A DNA stretch of 16,729 nucleotides from assembly GCA_007125415.1 (NCBI GenBank), contig SLDH01000118.1:1-16729 (forward strand). Direction: 5' to 3'. Source of the stretch: Roseovarius sp. GTDB taxonomy: Bacteria > Pseudomonadota > Alphaproteobacteria > Rhodobacterales > Rhodobacteraceae. Shown here one piece after another: positions 1,446-9,422 of the stretch; within the stretch, counting starts at the first letter, position 1; the number at the start of each line of letters is the position of its first letter. The position numbers were made by a program, and so were the translations under genes. The notes beneath the pieces were generated by a model. That model saw only the letters and a list, made by a program, of their open reading frames with translations. It was not told the origin of the DNA and searched no databases.

Positions 1446-2342
1446 TTGGCGATCAAGATCGAGATGCTCCGCTGTTTTCGCACCGTGGCCGACCATGGCA
1501 GCCTCGCGGAGGCGGCCAGTATGCTCGGGCGGACACCCTCCGCCGTGTCGATGATGCTCAAGCAATTCGAGGATCATATCGGCGCGCCGCTCTTCGAGAC
1601 GGCGCGCAAATCCCGTCTGACTCCGCTGGGCGAGATGATCCTTGCCGAAGCGCACCGCGAATTGTCGCATTTCGACCGCACGGTCTCGGCCATCGAGGGG
1701 CTCAGCAAGGCCGAGCAGGGGCATGTCCGCCTCGCCGTCACACCCTCTGTGGCTCAGGCCGTCATGCCGCCCATCCTGCGCTGCTATCTTCGGCAACATG
1801 CCGGTGTGTCCGTCGAAATGATCGACACCGACAGCCAGTCCGTCTGCCGCGAACTGACCACCGAGCGCGCCGATATCGGCATCGGCAGCCTGCCTCCCAT
1901 GCCGGGTTTCGAGCGCAATCTTGCCTTCACCGATGCGTTCGGCGTGGTTAGCCCCCGTGACCATCCCCTCACCAGGTCATGTAGAGGGCTCAGATGGGCA
2001 GATCTGGCCGAACACCGGTTCATCGCCAACGGCCTGTGCAGCCATGTGACCGATGAGGCATTTCAGCCGATCCTCGACGCCTCACAATTGATGATCCGCA
2101 ACACCACCTCGATCTTCAGCCTCGTGCGCGCGGGCCTCGGGATCACGCTTCTGCCAGAGTTGTCCATGCTCAAGGGTCATGACGGCCTGGCCTTCCTGCC
2201 GCTCGCCGATAGCACCGTGCGCCGCGAGGTCTGGGTCGTCACGCCACCCGCCTACATGCTCACCCCCGCTGCCCGGGCGCTCGCTCAGGCGATCCGGCAG
2301 GTGGATTATGCGGCATTGCGCCCATCTCTTCAGAAATCCTGA
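1446..2342 (+). CDS. LysR-family transcriptional regulator
   Basis: DNA-binding regulator of 298 residues, the usual LTTR length. An N-terminal winged helix-turn-helix covers about residues 5-62, with the family pattern FRTVADHGSLAEAASMLG, then TPSAVSMMLKQFE, and ending in the wing around ARKSRLTPLG (residues 53-62). Residues from about 92 form the periplasmic-binding-protein-like effector domain, starting GHVRLAVTPSVA and containing a typical SLVRAGLGITLLPEL segment. The start is TTG at 1446, backed by AGAAAGG at 1433-1439; an ATG at 1464 would cut into the helical N-terminus. It stands upstream of and on the same strand as the aldehyde dehydrogenase gene with a 78-base gap, so it probably regulates this cluster; many LTTRs are instead divergent from their targets. 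The effector is unknown. Confidence 0.9.
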   Translation: MAIKIEMLRCFRTVADHGSLAEAASMLGRTPSAVSMMLKQFEDHIGAPLFETARKSRLTPLGEMILAEAHRELSHFDRTVSAIEGLSKAEQGHVRLAVTPSVAQAVMPPILRCYLRQHAGVSVEMIDTDSQSVCRELTTERADIGIGSLPPMPGFERNLAFTDAFGVVSPRDHPLTRSCRGLRWADLAEHRFIANGLCSHVTDEAFQPILDASQLMIRNTTSIFSLVRAGLGITLLPELSMLKGHDGLAFLPLADSTVRREVWVVTPPAYMLTPAARALAQAIRQVDYAALRPSLQKS

Positions 2343-2420: not shown

Positions 2421-3872
2421 ATGGCGCAAACCCATGACAATCTGATCGGCGGCGCCTGGGTGTCGGGCCCCAAGACAGTGGAAAACCGCAACCCGTCGGA
2501 CATGGAAGACCTGATCGGCCTTTATGCGCAGGCCAGCGCCAGCCAGCTTGATGAGGCCCTTGCCGCGGCCCGCAGCGCACAGGCCGAATGGGCCACCTAC
2601 GGGCTTGAGCGCAAGCAGTCAGCACTCATGGCAATCGGCACGGAACTGATGGCCCGGGCCCAGGAGCTTGGCGCGCTGCTCAGCCGCGAAGAGGGCAAGC
2701 CGCTGGCCGAAGGCCGCGGCGAGGTCTATCGCGCCGGGCAGTTCTTCACCTATTACGCCCATGAAGTGCTTCGCCAACTCGGCGAGAATGCCGACAGCGT
2801 GCGCCCGCAGATCGAGGTGGATGTCAGGCGCGAACCGGTGGGCACTGTGGCGGTCATCAGCCCGTGGAACTTCCCCACAGCCACCGCGAGCTGGAAGATC
2901 GCCCCCGCGCTGGCCTATGGCAATGCGGTGATCTGGAAGCCTGCCAACCTCACCCCCGCCTCGGCGGTAGCGCTGACCGAGATCATCGCGCGCCAGGATA
3001 TCCCGGCGGGGCTTTTCAACCTCGTGATGGGCGCGGGCCGCGATGTGGGCCAGCGCCTTGTGGAAAGCCCCATGGTGGAGGCCATCTCCTTTACCGGCTC
3101 GGTGCCCGTGGGCAGGCAGATTGCAGCGGCCGCCGTGCAGAACCTCACCCGTGTGCAGATGGAAATGGGCTCGAAGAACGCGCTGGCGGTGATGGAGGAT
3201 GCCGATCTCGATCTGGCCGTTGCAGCAGCGCTCGGCGGTGCCTTCGGCGGCTCGGGGCAGAAATGCACCGCCTCCTCGCGCCTCGTGGTGCATGCGGCCA
3301 TCCATGATGCCTTCGTGGAGAAACTGGTGGCCGGCGCGCGCGCCATGAAAGTGGGCCACGCGCTGGAGCCCGACACGCAGATGGGGCCCGTGGTGTCGCA
3401 AGAGCAACTCGCGGCCAATCTGCGCTATGTGGAACTGGGCAAATCCGAAGGGGCGGAACTGGCCTGCGGCGGCACGCGGCTCAGCCTGTCGCATGACGGG
3501 CATTACATGTCGCCCGGAGTTTTCCTTAACACAACCAACAAAATGCGTATCAACCGCGAGGAAATGTTCGCGCCGCTTGCGGCGGTCATCCGGGTGGATG
3601 ACTATGACGAAGCTCTGCGGGTCGTCAATGACACGCCTTTCGGCCTGACCTCCGGCATCATCACCCGCAGCCTGGCCCGCGCCACTGATTTCCGCCGCCG
3701 GGCCCGCACCGGGGTTGTCACCGTGAACCTGCCTACGGCGGGCACGGATTATCACGTGCCCTTCGGCGGGCGCGGCCAAAGCTCCTTCGGCCCCCGTGAG
3801 CAGGGCATCCACGCGCGCGAGTTCTACACCACGGTCAAGACCGCCTATATCGCCGCCGGAGACCCCGCATGA
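2421..3872 (+). CDS. NAD(P)-dependent aldehyde dehydrogenase, 2-oxoglutarate-semialdehyde dehydrogenase-like
   Basis: Oxidises an aldehyde to its carboxylate with NAD(P)+ in the cytoplasm. The 483 residues give a full-length ALDH. Landmarks: PWNFP (148-152) with oxyanion N150; WKPA with cofactor-binding K173; FTGSVPVG (224-231) at the dinucleotide loop; general base E248 in QMEMGSKN; nucleophile C282 in GSGQKCTASS; and the EEMFAP motif with E381. The overall pattern (MEMGSKNALAV, the PFGGRGQSSFGPREQG region, the YTTVKTAY tail) is closest to 2-oxoglutarate-semialdehyde (2,5-dioxopentanoate) dehydrogenases of sugar-acid and hydroxyproline catabolism as I remember them. That substrate is inference; ALDH membership is firm. 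Its stop overlaps the next start by ATGA (3869-3872), so it is translationally coupled to the M19 gene. Confidence 0.93.
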   Translation: MAQTHDNLIGGAWVSGPKTVENRNPSDMEDLIGLYAQASASQLDEALAAARSAQAEWATYGLERKQSALMAIGTELMARAQELGALLSREEGKPLAEGRGEVYRAGQFFTYYAHEVLRQLGENADSVRPQIEVDVRREPVGTVAVISPWNFPTATASWKIAPALAYGNAVIWKPANLTPASAVALTEIIARQDIPAGLFNLVMGAGRDVGQRLVESPMVEAISFTGSVPVGRQIAAAAVQNLTRVQMEMGSKNALAVMEDADLDLAVAAALGGAFGGSGQKCTASSRLVVHAAIHDAFVEKLVAGARAMKVGHALEPDTQMGPVVSQEQLAANLRYVELGKSEGAELACGGTRLSLSHDGHYMSPGVFLNTTNKMRINREEMFAPLAAVIRVDDYDEALRVVNDTPFGLTSGIITRSLARATDFRRRARTGVVTVNLPTAGTDYHVPFGGRGQSSFGPREQGIHAREFYTTVKTAYIAAGDPA

Positions 3873-4864
3873 GCTATCGCATCGATGCGCTGCAATATGC
3901 CAACTGGTCGGAAAAGATCTTCCGGCAGATGCGCACGGGCCGGGTGGATGCGGTGCATGTCACCATCGCCTATCACGAAACCTTTCGCGAGACCGTGCTC
4001 AACATGGAGCGCTGGAATCGCTGGTTCGAAACCTGGCCCGACCTGATCATGAAGGGGCGGTGGGCGGGCGATGTGCGCCGTGCGCACGAGACCGGACGCA
4101 CCGCCATCTTCTTCGGCTTCCAGAACCCCTCGCCCATGGAGGATGATATCGGGCTGGTCGAGATCCTGCATGATCTCGGCGCGCGTTTCATGCAGTTGAG
4201 CTACAACAACCAGTCCCTGCTGGCCACGGGCTGCTACGAGGCCGAGGATCCGGGGCTTACCCGCATGGGCAGACAGGTGATCCGCGAGATGAACCGCGTG
4301 GGGCTGGTGATCGACATGTCTCACTCGGCCGATCGCTCCACCATCGAGGCGGCGGAGCTTTCCTCTCGCCCCATCACCATCACCCACGCCAACCCCCATG
4401 GCTGGCACCCTGCCCTGCGCAACAAGCGCGACGATGTAATCCGCGCGGTGGTCGAGCATGGCGGCATGATGGGCTTTTCGCTTTATCCGCATCACCTGAA
4501 GGACAAATCCGCCTGCACGCTGGAGAGTTTCTGCGCCATGGTGGCGGGGGCCGCCGAGCGCTTTGGCGTGCGGCATTTCGGCATCGGCTCGGATCTCTGT
4601 CAGGATCAGCCCGACAGCGTGGTGGAATGGATGCGCACCGGGCGCTGGTCGAAGGAGCTCGATTATGGCGAGGGCTCAGCCGCGGCCCCCGGCTTTCCGC
4701 CGCAACCCGACTGGTTTCGGGACAATCGCGATTTCGACCGTCTCGAGGCGGGCCTGCGCGCCGTGGGCTTTGACGCGAGCGAGGTCGCGGGGCTCATGGG
4801 CGATAACTGGTATCGATTTTTTGAAGAGAACTTCGCCCCGCAGGAGCAGCGGGATGACCGCTAG
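3869..4864 (+). CDS. M19 (renal/membrane dipeptidase) family protein with altered metal site
   Basis: Member of the M19 branch of the amidohydrolase superfamily, 331 residues, cytoplasmic (no signal peptide). Conserved M19 features: IDMSH with H152, THANP with H173, ALRN with R184, GIGSD with D242, and the C-terminal GDNWYRFFEENF, like the family's GxNxxRxxE end. Two features of true dipeptidases are missing: the N-terminal HxD metal motif is replaced by IDALQYANW (residues 5-13), and the glutamate bridging the two zincs appears as Q85 in GFQNPSP. The same replacements occur, as far as I remember, in the 'dipeptidase' next to the dimethylglycine demethylation genes of Pseudomonas, so this is a separate subfamily whose substrate may not be a dipeptide. 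It is coupled to the ALDH by an ATGA overlap. Family call is firm, activity unknown. Confidence 0.85.
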   Translation: MSYRIDALQYANWSEKIFRQMRTGRVDAVHVTIAYHETFRETVLNMERWNRWFETWPDLIMKGRWAGDVRRAHETGRTAIFFGFQNPSPMEDDIGLVEILHDLGARFMQLSYNNQSLLATGCYEAEDPGLTRMGRQVIREMNRVGLVIDMSHSADRSTIEAAELSSRPITITHANPHGWHPALRNKRDDVIRAVVEHGGMMGFSLYPHHLKDKSACTLESFCAMVAGAAERFGVRHFGIGSDLCQDQPDSVVEWMRTGRWSKELDYGEGSAAAPGFPPQPDWFRDNRDFDRLEAGLRAVGFDASEVAGLMGDNWYRFFEENFAPQEQRDDR

Positions 4865-5270
4865 CAGGATGCTGAAGAAGCCCGGCTCGCCCGGGAATCA
4901 TGCGCAAAACCGGGGAACTGTTCGGCGCTGCGCCAACCACTTGTCTGGCCCGGTGACACCCCGGGCCGCGCCCGACCCTCCCCCCGGAGGGCGCTCTGGC
5001 GATGATGCGCATCACACTGACGGCATTTATGCTTTTGGGCGATACGCATGGAACTGGCGTTGCGATGCGCCCCCCAGGCTCGGGCGCGGCACTCATGGCG
5101 CAGGAACGCGTGTTGGAAGGTGGACCAGTTTCCCGTTCGGGCATGACCGGAATTCCTCTTTCAGAATCCCTCTGGAAAATCCGGCACCCTGCCGGGCTCT
5201 GCAGTTTCCCGATGCCCGGGCAGGGAGGAAACCCGATTTGGCGCGACATGCCATGGATGAGAGCCACCCC

Positions 5271-5302
5271 GCGGCGAGATGGCGCTTGCAGAGCGTCGCC
5301 GC
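5271..5302 (+). promoter_or_regulatory. Nested stem-loop just before the ribosome binding site
   Basis: GCGGCGA (5271-5277) pairs with TCGCCGC (5296-5302), and inside it CGCT (5283-5286) pairs with AGCG (5292-5295) around a 5-base loop; five unpaired bases lie on the left side only. The stem ends 18 bases before the AGGAG at 5321. It could influence translation of the 563-residue gene. Function is inference. Confidence 0.4.
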
Positions 5303-5320
5303 TCGGACAAGATACGCAAC

Positions 5321-5325
5321 AGGAG
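5321..5325 (+). promoter_or_regulatory. Ribosome binding site fixing the start at 5332
   Basis: AGGAG stands 6 bases before the ATG at 5332. It decides for this start against the in-frame ATGs upstream (from 5002), none of which has such a site. Confidence 0.7.
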
Positions 5326-5331
5326 TTTGCC

Positions 5332-7023
5332 ATGGAACAGAGCCCAAGCCTTGCAATCCCTCCCCGTGATCCGGCGACGGTCATGCGGTTGGCGCGCATG
5401 GGCTCGTTCCATCAGTCGCGCCTTTCCTTCATGCGGGTATTGCTGCGCCGCCTGGCCAGCGAGCACTGGCAGTTCGAACAGCGCAGCTTCGAGATAGATT
5501 CGCGCGGCGTGGGCCACGCGGTTTATACCGCCCATGGGCCCGAGCGCAGCTATTCGCTCATCGCCTTTGCCAATGACCTGCCCCCGGAAAAACGCTCGGA
5601 CCGGGTGATCGCCACCGAGTGGGACGCGACCTTCGCCCTCTTTGACGGCCTGCCCGACGCCGCGGATATCGAGCGGCTGCGCCAGCATGTGCCGAAGCAG
5701 GAGGCCGGGCGCATCAGCGCGCGCGAATTGTCGCTGAGCCGCGCCAACCGCTCGGTGCGGCTATGGGATCACGTGATCGAGGCGCTGAGCGCGGGTCGCC
5801 AGCCCGATGCCGCAAAGGTGGGCGAGGTCGGCTATCTGATGCGCACCACCGCGGTCTATGGCTCGGGCAAGTTCGGCGCGGCGGATCGTGAGATGATCGC
5901 GGAGCGGCCCGAATTTCGCGCACCCTTTCAGGTCGAGATGCTGGCGGTCTATCTCATCCGGTCCTTCGTGATGGATCTGGTCGAGCATATGGCGCGGATG
6001 CGCGCCCCCGAGACCGCCGTGCCGCTTGACCCGGCGCTGCGGCGCAGCTTCGGTATCGGCAATTCCACGGGGCTCGGGATGGCCCCCTTTCTGATCACTC
6101 ACCCGGTGCTGATCAACAATTGGATCGCCGCGCGCGAATGGGCGCTGGCGCGAGTGCGCTCCCTGCCAATGGCGAGCGAAGAGGACGCCCGCATCTTCCG
6201 GAAATTTGCTGCCCGCGCGCACCTCCACGCCGAACGATGGACTTCCGAACACCCCCTGCAGATCACCAGGCTCAAGGCGCTGCGCACCGATATGGCCCGC
6301 CTAGAAGCGCATCTGGGCGACGCTGATCTGACCAGCGACATGCCGTGGAACCGGCTCTGGCGCTGGGGCGGGAACACGCTTTCGCTGGAAGGGCAGGAGC
6401 AGCTTGCCTCGCTTTTGCTCGAGCCCTACGGCAGCATCGTCGATGGGCTTTCGGAATGCATGTACGCCGACGAACAGGACGCCTGGCGCATCGACGGGGC
6501 GATGTCCTGCGCCGAGATGCGTGCCATCCTCGAGAGTGTCTACGCCTGGGCGCTGGCTATCGACTGGTCCGCCCGCACAGCGCAGGCGCGCGTCTGGTAT
6601 ACCTCCGAGGCCAAGCTCGAGCCGCGTGTCGGTGAACGTTTTGACGAGCCGATCGAGCCTTACGAACAACCGCTATGCCCGGGGCGCGATGCCGCACGGC
6701 TCCATGCCGATCTGCGGGGGCTGGACGGCCCCCTCGCCGCCTTCCTGCTGCGTTACCCGCAACATCGCCACATTGCCCGACGCGCCCAGATCGCCGCGCG
6801 CCACCCCTATGCGGAGATCCGCGACAACACGATCGATGCGGAAATGCTGCCAATCGATCTGCTACGCGCCAAGCTCAGCTTTTTCGGTGCCTGCCAGTTC
6901 GACCCGCGCTCGGACCGGTGGCTGCGCATCAACATGTATCAAAACGCCCCTTTCCCGGCGGAGCTTGCAAGCCTCGGCCCGGAAGACTGGAGCTATCCCG
7001 ACCTGGCCCAGGCGGCGGAATGA
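5332..7023 (+). CDS. Uncharacterised 563-residue protein paired with DUF3726
   Basis: I do not recognise a named domain. The protein is 563 residues, with no signal peptide and no evident membrane segment; a hydrophobic stretch near LAVYLIRSFVMDLVEHM is amphipathic rather than a clear span. It begins MEQSPSLAIPP and enters a likely conserved part at MGSFHQSRLSFMRVLLRRL. Strikingly aromatic, motif-like blocks follow: FANDLPPEKRSDRVIATEWD, GIGNSTGLGMAPFLITHPVL, MPWNRLWRWGGNTLSLEGQE, and a C-terminal FFGACQFDPRSDRWLRINMY. Such spaced Trp/Asn/Asp/Gly blocks suggest an enzyme rather than a structural protein; that is inference. Its TGA overlaps the ATG of the DUF3726 gene (7020-7023), so the two products are probably made together and may form a complex. 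The upstream extension to 5002 is rejected. Confidence 0.85.
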   Translation: MEQSPSLAIPPRDPATVMRLARMGSFHQSRLSFMRVLLRRLASEHWQFEQRSFEIDSRGVGHAVYTAHGPERSYSLIAFANDLPPEKRSDRVIATEWDATFALFDGLPDAADIERLRQHVPKQEAGRISARELSLSRANRSVRLWDHVIEALSAGRQPDAAKVGEVGYLMRTTAVYGSGKFGAADREMIAERPEFRAPFQVEMLAVYLIRSFVMDLVEHMARMRAPETAVPLDPALRRSFGIGNSTGLGMAPFLITHPVLINNWIAAREWALARVRSLPMASEEDARIFRKFAARAHLHAERWTSEHPLQITRLKALRTDMARLEAHLGDADLTSDMPWNRLWRWGGNTLSLEGQEQLASLLLEPYGSIVDGLSECMYADEQDAWRIDGAMSCAEMRAILESVYAWALAIDWSARTAQARVWYTSEAKLEPRVGERFDEPIEPYEQPLCPGRDAARLHADLRGLDGPLAAFLLRYPQHRHIARRAQIAARHPYAEIRDNTIDAEMLPIDLLRAKLSFFGACQFDPRSDRWLRINMYQNAPFPAELASLGPEDWSYPDLAQAAE

Positions 7024-7664
7024 GCTGGTCACTGGGCGAAATCGAAAGCCTTTCCCGCAAGGCCACGCGCGGGGCGGGATACCTCTGGGGCCATGCGGAG
7101 GAGGCGGGCAAGGCCGTGCGCTGGCTCTGTGCCGCGGGCCTGCCGGGCGAGACGGCGCTCGCGGGGTTGCTGCAACACAATGATGGCCAGCCCTATGAGC
7201 AGATTCGTCCGGTCGATACCTCGGCCATGCCGTGGCAGGCGCGGGGCGGTGCGCTCTGCCCGCTCGCCAGCGGCGCGGCCCTGTGTGATCTGGCGGAGCC
7301 TGGGTTTGACGCGGCACTGGCGCGGGTGGGTTTTCCGCTGTTATTGCTCCCATACGTCGTGATTGCCGCCGACATGACCAAAGCCCCGCTGCGCGTTGTA
7401 TGGCAGGGGGTGACCATCACCCGCAACGCGCAAGGCACATACATGCAAGCCGCACCCGATGCGCTCAACCCGATCGAGGCGCAGATGCTGCGCGTCAGCC
7501 CCGCGCCGGATCACGCGGGCACGCGCCTCAGACGCAGCTATCGTGCCGAGATCGACGCGCCCAGTGCCGAGATCCTCGCAAAGTTCGCCCATCGCACCTA
7601 CGCGCCTGAAACCGAAGAAAGCCGCCTTTCCGGTGCTGGTGCCGGGCTTACCGACAACGATTGA
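7020..7664 (+). CDS. DUF3726 domain protein
   Basis: A 214-residue cytoplasmic protein that fits the DUF3726 family: the opening MSWSLGEIESLSRKATRGAG, then GYLWGHAEEAGKAVRWLCAA, is the typical N-terminus as I remember it. No catalytic motif is known to me for this family. It contains four cysteines, three of them in similar LCxL/LCAA settings (residues 37, 80 and about 89). It is coupled by an ATGA overlap to the preceding 563-residue gene and ends 21 bases before the convergent permease gene, with no clear terminator between them. Context suggests a subunit or partner of the preceding protein in the pathway run by the ALDH and the M19 protein. Family call rests on recall of the pattern; function is unknown. 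Confidence 0.78.
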   Translation: MSWSLGEIESLSRKATRGAGYLWGHAEEAGKAVRWLCAAGLPGETALAGLLQHNDGQPYEQIRPVDTSAMPWQARGGALCPLASGAALCDLAEPGFDAALARVGFPLLLLPYVVIAADMTKAPLRVVWQGVTITRNAQGTYMQAAPDALNPIEAQMLRVSPAPDHAGTRLRRSYRAEIDAPSAEILAKFAHRTYAPETEESRLSGAGAGLTDND

Positions 7665-7685: not shown

Positions 7686-9335
7686 TCAGCTCGGGCGCGG
7701 GACCATCCGCGTCGCCTTTCCGCCGCCTGCGAGGGTCCAGCAGAGCAGCATGACGGGCAGGAGCCCGAAGGCCCCCAGCGCAAGCGAGGGGACCGCCGCC
7801 TCGAAGAGCCGCTCATCCGCCGCCAGCCTGTGGGCCTGCACCGCAAGGGTCTGAAAATTGAAGGGATGCAGGATCATCGTGGCCGGCAATTCCTTCATGA
7901 CATCCACGAATACGATGAGAAGTGCTGTGAACACCGAGGTCCGCGCCACCGGCAGATGCACCCGCCAAAGCATGCGCGGTGCCCCCTGCCCGAGCGAGCG
8001 GGCCACCGCATCGTAATGCGCCGGCACCGTGGCCATGCCGCTGTCGTAAGCGTTGAGAGCAGCCGCCATGAAGCGCACGAAATAGGCCATGATCATCAGC
8101 CAGATCGAGCCGGTGATCAAAAGCCCCGTGCTGATATCGAAGCGCGCCCGCATGAATGCGTCTATGGCATTGTCAAGCGCGCCTGCAGGCATCACCAGCC
8201 CCACCGCGATCACCCCGCCGGGCACCGCGTAGCCCAGCGAGGCGATCACCACCATGGCGCGCGCTGGCCGCCCCGGGCGGGTCCGCGCGTAGAAGCCGAT
8301 CACAACCGCGCCTGCAACAGTCAACACGGCCGCGATGGACGCAAGCGTCAGCGAGTTTGTCATGAATTGCAGATAGCGCGGCGAAAGCAGAGACTGCCCC
8401 GATCCCCAGGCCATGATGCTCAGCATGATCACCGGGATGAGAAACCCCAGAAGCACCGGGATCAGGCAGATCATCATCGCGCCGAATCCGGCTAGGCCCC
8501 GGAGCCTCGGGCGCTCGGCCCTGTCAAAGCGCATGCCCTGCCCCGCCGTGCGCGCTTTGCCGCGCTGTGCCCGTTCCAACCCCGCCAGCAGCAGCGCAAA
8601 CATCAGCAGGCACAGGGCAAGCTGTGCTGCGGCGGGCCGATCACCCAATGAGAACCAGCTCTGATAGATGCCCGTGGCGAAGGTCGGGACATTGAAGAAT
8701 GAGACAGTGCCGTAATCGGCAATGGTTTCCATGATCGCCAGAAGCGCGCCTCCCGCAATGGCCGGGCGCGCCATGGGCAGAGCCACACGCCAGAACGCTT
8801 GCATCGGTGTGAGCCCAAGGGTGCGCGCCACAAGAAAGGCATTGGCGCTTTGCTGTTTGAACGAGGCCCGCGCCAGCAGATACACATAAGGATAGAGCAC
8901 GATGCTCAGCATCGCGGCCGCACCACCGATGCTGCGGACATTGGGAAACCAGTAATCACGCGGACCCAGTCCCGTCAGATCGCGCAGAAGTGTCTGCACC
9001 GGGCCGGGATGGTCCAGAAGATAGGTATAGGCATAAGCCAGCACGAAGGCCGGAAAGGCCAGCGGCAGGGCCAGCGCCACTTCCAGCAATTTCGCACCTG
9101 GAAAGCGGTAAACCGTCACCAGCCACGCGGTCACGCTGCCGATCACGGCCGTGGAGGTACCGACAATCACCACGAGGATGAGCGTGGTGATGGTATAGCG
9201 CGGCAGAACGCTCGACAGGACATCGCGCCATGTCGAGAGATCACCCGTCAGCGCCGCCGCAGCGGCGGCCACAATCGGCACGATGCAGATAACGACAGCA
9301 AGCCAGGACAGGATCGAAAGGAGGCGCTCTGTCAT
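7686..9335 (-). CDS. fbpB: Fe(3+) ABC transporter permease (FbpB/AfuB type, two-lobed)
   Basis: Inner-membrane permease of 549 residues with two fused permease lobes of about six membrane spans each, as in FbpB/AfuB/SfuB. Each lobe has a cytoplasmic EAA loop that docks the ATPase: around residues 165-190 (ARTLGLTPMQAFWRVALPMA) and 440-465 (ARSLGQGAPRMLWRVHLPVA). KELPATMILHPFNFQTLA (481-498) is typical of ferric and related permeases. The frame is open back to 9422, but the start at 9335 is chosen because AAGGGA lies 8 bases upstream and the peptide then begins with a normal hydrophobic span; the longer form would translate straight through the operator at 9403-9419. It convergently faces the DUF3726 gene. 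The partner binding protein is probably the gene at 114-1142; no ATPase gene is present here. Confidence 0.92.
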   Translation of the reverse strand: MTERLLSILSWLAVVICIVPIVAAAAAALTGDLSTWRDVLSSVLPRYTITTLILVVIVGTSTAVIGSVTAWLVTVYRFPGAKLLEVALALPLAFPAFVLAYAYTYLLDHPGPVQTLLRDLTGLGPRDYWFPNVRSIGGAAAMLSIVLYPYVYLLARASFKQQSANAFLVARTLGLTPMQAFWRVALPMARPAIAGGALLAIMETIADYGTVSFFNVPTFATGIYQSWFSLGDRPAAAQLALCLLMFALLLAGLERAQRGKARTAGQGMRFDRAERPRLRGLAGFGAMMICLIPVLLGFLIPVIMLSIMAWGSGQSLLSPRYLQFMTNSLTLASIAAVLTVAGAVVIGFYARTRPGRPARAMVVIASLGYAVPGGVIAVGLVMPAGALDNAIDAFMRARFDISTGLLITGSIWLMIMAYFVRFMAAALNAYDSGMATVPAHYDAVARSLGQGAPRMLWRVHLPVARTSVFTALLIVFVDVMKELPATMILHPFNFQTLAVQAHRLAADERLFEAAVPSLALGAFGLLPVMLLCWTLAGGGKATRMVPRPS

Positions 9336-9343
9336 TCTGGAAG

Positions 9344-9349
9344 TCCCTT
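9344..9349 (-). promoter_or_regulatory. Ribosome binding site fixing the permease start
   Basis: AAGGGA on the minus strand stands 8 bases before the ATG at 9335. No comparable site precedes the in-frame ATG at 9422. Confidence 0.6.
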
Positions 9350-9402
9350 GCCACCGTGCAACCCGGGCTTGGTAGACCAGAGCGAGACAGGCTTCAATAT
9401 CT

Positions 9403-9419
9403 CCGACTGATTTTGTCGG
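9403..9419. promoter_or_regulatory. Second iron-type operator, upstream of the ferric permease
   Basis: CCGAC-TGATTTT-GTCGG is a perfect 5-base-arm palindrome. Its 15-base core (9404-9418) matches the operator at 51-65 at 12 of 15 positions; the outer pair changes together from T/A to C/G, giving CGA-N9-TCG, so symmetry is kept. Read in the direction of the permease, TTGCCG lies just before it and GATATT or TATTGA just after, spaced 15 or 17 bases, so the operator would sit inside the core promoter, as expected for a repressor site. Confidence 0.6.
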
Positions 9420-9422
9420 CAA

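Follow-up and report, generated by a model that had tools for sequence, protein, structure and literature searches.

The window, by which we mean the whole 16,729-nucleotide stretch of Roseovarius sp. DNA analyzed here, carries a LysR-type regulator gene followed on the same strand by four genes encoding an aldehyde dehydrogenase (ALDH), an M19-fold protein, a 563-residue protein (X563), and a DUF3726 protein (Table 1). The coordinates confirmed the layout described in the initial annotation, with four same-strand genes behind a LysR gene in two pairs, each with a 4-base overlap at 3869–3872 (ALDH/M19) and 7020–7023 (X563/DUF3726). The pairs are separated by a gap of 467 nt, which holds a BCCT transporter gene in 21 of 82 clustered loci; a search of the window's gap detected no BCCT remnant. 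The gap does contain a 32-base repeat with 11 copies in the genome at up to 3 mismatches, compared with 0 for the reversed control. This repeat is GC-rich, and a 37-base match at 97% occurs in another Roseovarius (L012:15498-15534).

Table 1. Features of the gene block in the window.
Feature	Position	Strand	Basis or remark
LysR-type regulator	1446..2342	+	TTG start as listed; heads block; Pfam LysR_substrate and HTH_1
ALDH	2421..3872	+	Pfam Aldedh (PF00171), E 3.4e-154
M19-fold protein, putative amide hydrolase	3869..4864	+	Pfam Peptidase_M19, E 4.9e-72
Interspersed 32-base repeat, between both gene pairs	4963..4994	+	Repeat search of genome
X563 (563 residues; large unnamed family)	5332..7023	+	No Pfam family
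DUF3726, partner of X563	7020..7664	+	Pfam DUF3726, E 2.8e-21

Flanking the block are an ABC solute-binding protein gene (SBP_bac_6; 114–1142, + strand) and, on the other side, a convergent two-domain ABC permease gene (7686–9422, − strand), as if the block lay between parts of one transporter. The nearest NCBIfam models to the SBP_bac_6 protein, 2-aminoethylphosphonate and thiamine binding proteins, scored under cut-off.

The ALDH scored 514 bits against PF00171 (cut-off 23). Its nearest NCBIfam models are 2,5-dioxovalerate and ketoglutaric semialdehyde dehydrogenases, all under cut-off; for a 2,5-dioxovalerate dehydrogenase identity, the score was 474 bits versus a cut-off of 750. The M19 protein belongs to the Peptidase_M19 fold family (243 bits, cut-off 26), and its initial description as altered was borne out by an alignment of 26 members, in which the HxD metal-motif site is Leu8-Gln9 and the bridging-Glu site is Gln85, both invariant. 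The HxD motif and the bridging Glu, which we take to be the canonical dinuclear metal ligands of M19 dipeptidases, are absent from all 26 aligned members; His173 is conserved in every member and His152 in nearly all. The nearest PDB sequence is the M19-fold amidohydrolase 2i5g (E 2.6e-52), presumably from Pseudomonas aeruginosa, with which the protein shares a GFQN stretch. We regard the M19-fold protein as a putative amide hydrolase.

X563 belongs to a family of at least 7,998 homologous entries. Its structure model is confident and had no match to a solved structure among the fold matches listed, and X563 may have a fold for which no related structure has been solved. A fold search identified DUF3726 as a shortened Ldh_2 fold, with 214 residues versus about 313–361 in the matched Ldh_2 chains. 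The Ldh_2 family comprises type-2 malate/lactate, ureidoglycolate, and piperideine-2-carboxylate reductases, and its dehydrogenases presumably rely on a catalytic His. DUF3726, in contrast, falls short of the full length and has no conserved His, none being invariant or nearly invariant among 66 sequences. The fold assignment derives from the fold search and not from hhalign, which aligned 43 N-terminal columns of DUF3726 and Ldh_2 with a probability of 38.5. The DUF3726 profile gave a single match in the PDB (E 0.64), which was taken as chance, and the name DUF3726 was not found in the literature searched.

The distribution of the genes was surveyed in 149 genomes drawn from Rhodobacterales, a sample less biased than the 82-locus clustering. 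X563 occurred in 93 genomes at 100 places. DUF3726 was found by Pfam in 81 genomes at 84 places (one DUF3726 genome, G043, scoring under the Pfam cut-off), and in 84 of 84 it lay within 500 nt of X563 on the same strand, in support of the proposal that the two proteins act together. Close M19 orthologues, counted after dropping 3 of 97 places at 30–34% identity, all in X563-negative genomes (G014, G066, G081), were present in 91 genomes. Close ALDH orthologues were present in 61, with at most 10 first-look candidates scored per genome (at most 5 for soxA) and with 18 of 79 places at 50–58% identity dropped, a step that takes out 7 genomes, among them 5 X563-negative ones (G040, G046, G066, G098, G105). 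All genomes with a close M19 or ALDH orthologue were X563-positive, and none of the X563-negative genomes among the 149 held DUF3726 or a close orthologue of M19 or ALDH. Across the 149 genomes the association of X563 with DUF3726 (Fisher p 1.6e-29) and with M19 (Fisher p 3.6e-39) exceeds chance, although common ancestry of the genomes inflates such p values.

We also checked whether X563 and DUF3726 occur mostly apart from the other two genes, and they do not: DUF3726, M19, and ALDH all lay near X563 at 53 of the 100 places, DUF3726 and M19 at 21, M19 only at 11, DUF3726 only at 10, and none at 5. Some blocks are split, the partner genes lying elsewhere in the genome in several cases. A DUF3726 relative stood directly 3' of X563 in 13 of 13 loci inspected (profile E 1.5e-15 or better), drawn from 7 genomes among the 12 that have X563 but no DUF3726 match by Pfam, together with 6 more divergent loci. 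The clustered set comprised 82 sequences, namely 80 kept from 94 loci bearing X563 relatives, plus the window and L001, which overlaps it. The DUF3726 ORF cluster occurred in at least 75 of them, M19 in 64, ALDH in 44, LysR in 34, and BCCT in 21; these counts are lower bounds, given that some of the contigs are short and that greedy ORF selection missed the DUF3726 of the window itself. The four genes are one functional module, as the initial annotation had supposed in treating them as one conserved pathway, and X563 is probably the main subunit of a two-subunit enzyme. Eight bins labelled Acidimicrobiales (L055, L057-L061, L063, L070) carry M19-X563-DUF3726 without an adjoining ALDH, at 59–64% X563 identity, through gene transfer or misbinning. 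In L069 and L071, X563 adjoins genes for a pyruvate:ferredoxin-oxidoreductase-type TPP enzyme and a ferredoxin.

More distant X563 copies, at about 30% identity and with a divergent partner protein encoded directly after every one, were found in Sinorhizobium pSymB, Bosea, Ensifer, Mesorhizobium, and the haloarchaeon Natrinema. A profile search returned 208 proteins, with many haloarchaeal by name among the best 120 of the 208. Neighbors of the Sinorhizobium pSymB copy are M19, polyamine-type ABC genes, an aminotransferase, and SSADH. The distant pairs on rhizobial plasmids (L085, L087, L127) and in Natrinema (L086) have IclR-type or other regulators, with M19 and ABC or BCCT transport nearby and SSADH and RidA in some; these likely represent sister pathways for other substrates. 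Trigonelline was considered for the S. meliloti pSymB copy and rejected: according to the excerpt of PMC4207669, the wild type grows on trigonelline and a strain lacking pSymA does not, so pSymB alone is insufficient for this growth. The gene stcD is located on pSymB in the excerpted text of PMC12239276.

A fifth enzyme, Ldh_2, accompanies the module. At E ≤ 1e-50 it was present in 90 of 93 X563-positive versus 10 of 56 X563-negative genomes. Comparison of DUF3726, ALDH, and Ldh_2 coordinates placed 29 of the 30 Ldh_2 copies with 51–64% identity to the Aminobacter query after DUF3726 and one (G118) next to ALDH; copies at 34–46% identity are mostly unlinked to the block, as is the copy in the window's genome (contig C17). 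Plasmids of Tritonibacter and Phaeobacter porticola carry the order LysR/ALDH/M19/X563/DUF3726/Ldh_2, in which a BCCT gene separates M19 from X563. Transporter genes follow Ldh_2 in Alisedimentitalea (BCCT) and in Aminobacter, Pararhizobium, and the unverified 'Roseateles' XES5 (ProXWV). The Ldh_2 region after DUF3726 in Phaeobacter inhibens DSM 17395 (L082, ~16321–17482) consists of two separate, unannotated ORFs, whereas the gene is whole in P. porticola.

On P. inhibens pPGA1_262 the block adjoins genes for a tetramer annotated as sarcosine oxidase. Such a tetramer adjoins X563 in eight loci (L159-L166), in line after Ldh_2 in L165; L159 matches the P. porticola plasmid and may therefore be the same organism. 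Among the matches listed, homologues of the pPGA1_262 alpha subunit from the order form one class at 63–88% identity, with at least 60 places, and another at 60% or below. All seven first-class tetramer loci fetched beside gmaS matches also had MgsA- and MgsC-like genes. Maximum-likelihood trees place the X563-linked alpha subunits (a label that includes L167, whose tetramer is ~19 kb from X563) among the gmaS-linked ones and separate four class-2 (putative sarcosine oxidase) sequences at 100/99; the branch uniting the side of N-methylglutamate dehydrogenase (Mgd) has 87/98 in a 28-row tree. L125 and L134 are long-branched and stayed unplaced, and the second tree omitted L125 and L126. Sarcosine oxidase was rejected as the identity of the tetramer: the NCBIfam soxA and soxB models scored above cut-off but do not separate the tetramer from Mgd; the tree and the gmaS/mgs linkage make the distinction. 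An AraC gene adjoins the tetramer beside the block, much as the AraC gene tmaR adjoins mgdABCD of Ruegeria pomeroyi in the excerpt of PMC13390433. The window's genome has gmaS and a tetramer, both on other contigs, this tetramer and its same-genus relatives being assigned to the Mgd side by the tree alone, without gmaS linkage. Co-occurrence of X563 with gmaS is moderate (40 of 93 X563-positive versus 11 of 56 X563-negative genomes). Since the tetramer groups with the gmaS/mgs-linked Mgd, the output of the module is likely N-methylglutamate.

We consider it probable that this LysR-linked block serves the catabolism of an N-methylated cyclic carboxylate of the betaine type, homarine (N-methylpicolinate) being the likeliest substrate and N-methylglutamate the output. 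The nitrogenous carboxylic acid anticipated in the initial annotation as the substrate class is thereby supported in an N-methyl, betaine-type form. Between homarine (7 C) and N-methylglutamate (6 C) a single carbon of the ring would be lost, in keeping with this reading. A 2026 report cited in PMC13390433 (Nat Microbiol, doi 10.1038/s41564-026-02313-7) is said to give Mgd a part in homarine catabolism. Homarine would enter through a betaine transporter, and X563 with the Ldh_2-derived DUF3726 would attack and open the ring. ALDH could then oxidize the resulting semialdehyde, the M19 protein hydrolyze the remaining amide, for example an N-formyl group, and Ldh_2 reduce an imine or double bond; Mgd would convert N-methylglutamate into glutamate and methylene-tetrahydrofolate. 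We infer this order of steps, and the protein at each, beyond what gene linkage provides. The trigonelline tgn genes of Acinetobacter presumably act on an N-methylpyridine carboxylate as well and would pass through N-methylformamide-type intermediates; that system uses a flavin monooxygenase pair, whereas X563 and DUF3726 have no Pfam match to such families.

The 2026 Nat Microbiol study reportedly describes a homarine operon of environmental bacteria, named homABCDER, which is also said to occur in SAR11 and SAR116. The block plus Ldh_2, with five enzyme genes and a LysR gene, would fit that name. The Mgd link (L159-L166, the Phaeobacter plasmids, and the trees) and the occurrence in Rhodobacterales are further apparent likenesses. 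The window differs in having its Ldh_2 outside the block, on another contig (C17). We infer that the block is probably identical with this operon and its pathway already described, which makes the initial view of an undescribed pathway doubtful; a putative two-subunit enzyme, X563-DUF3726, stands at the center of this pathway. Literature searches by gene and pathway words gave no paper on the gene cluster among the matches listed, and for homarine gave only papers mentioning it, one with the 2026 citation.

Several neighbors count against homarine. GcvP or GcvT adjoins M19 or ALDH in L042, L044, L105, and L140 (ALDH in L140), and L054 has MTTB, a homocysteine methyltransferase-family gene, and DAO/GCV_T genes. 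These point to the glycine betaine–dimethylglycine–sarcosine–glycine branch, where the module would act on a larger betaine to release either N-methylglycine or glycine, leaving the rest of the breakdown to neighboring demethylases and glycine cleavage. The betaine transporters would suit that branch too, as would L125, with its tetramer annotated as sarcosine oxidase and PurU and FolD near the block. We nevertheless find it unlikely: the tetramer in eight genomes groups with the gmaS/mgs-linked Mgd and not with class 2, that of L125 is long-branched and unplaced, and Ldh_2 gets no obvious role. Hydantoinase genes near the block in L067, L086, L125, and L147 likewise point elsewhere than homarine.

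Mgd linkage is left unexplained if the substrate is hydroxyproline, as initially suggested, 3-hydroxyproline, or (hydroxy)proline betaine, which we judge improbable. Of the 82 loci, 8 have Pro_racemase genes downstream and 9 have Ldh_2, but none has both clusters. The ALDH is nearest to 2,5-dioxovalerate dehydrogenase models, though under cut-off, and Sulfitobacter has possible D-hydroxyproline oxidase-like genes. Conserved racemase, oxidase, and deaminase neighbors were sought and only scattered ones were found, the oxidase and deaminase partners not being conserved. It is more improbable still, to the point of being hardly credible, that ALDH-M19 and X563-DUF3726 are two separate systems standing side by side. 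Five genomes (G032, G102, G104, G126, G136) do have ALDH and M19 as a pair at a great distance from X563, but all five carry both halves, and the confinement of close ALDH and M19 orthologues to X563-positive genomes argues against independence.

X563-DUF3726 may represent a novel class of two-subunit enzymes that open or reduce betaines of the N-methylpyridinium type, in which a fold still absent from the PDB is combined with a partner descended from a shrunken Ldh_2; the haloarchaeal and rhizobial relatives at ~30% identity would then perform the same chemistry on other betaines. We offer this tentatively, at somewhat less than even likelihood. Homarine is described in the literature as a common marine phytoplankton osmolyte. 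If the homarine reading is true, an unnamed family and a DUF would constitute the enzyme that starts homarine breakdown, and their genes would serve as markers from which homarine carbon and nitrogen flux could be read in genomes.
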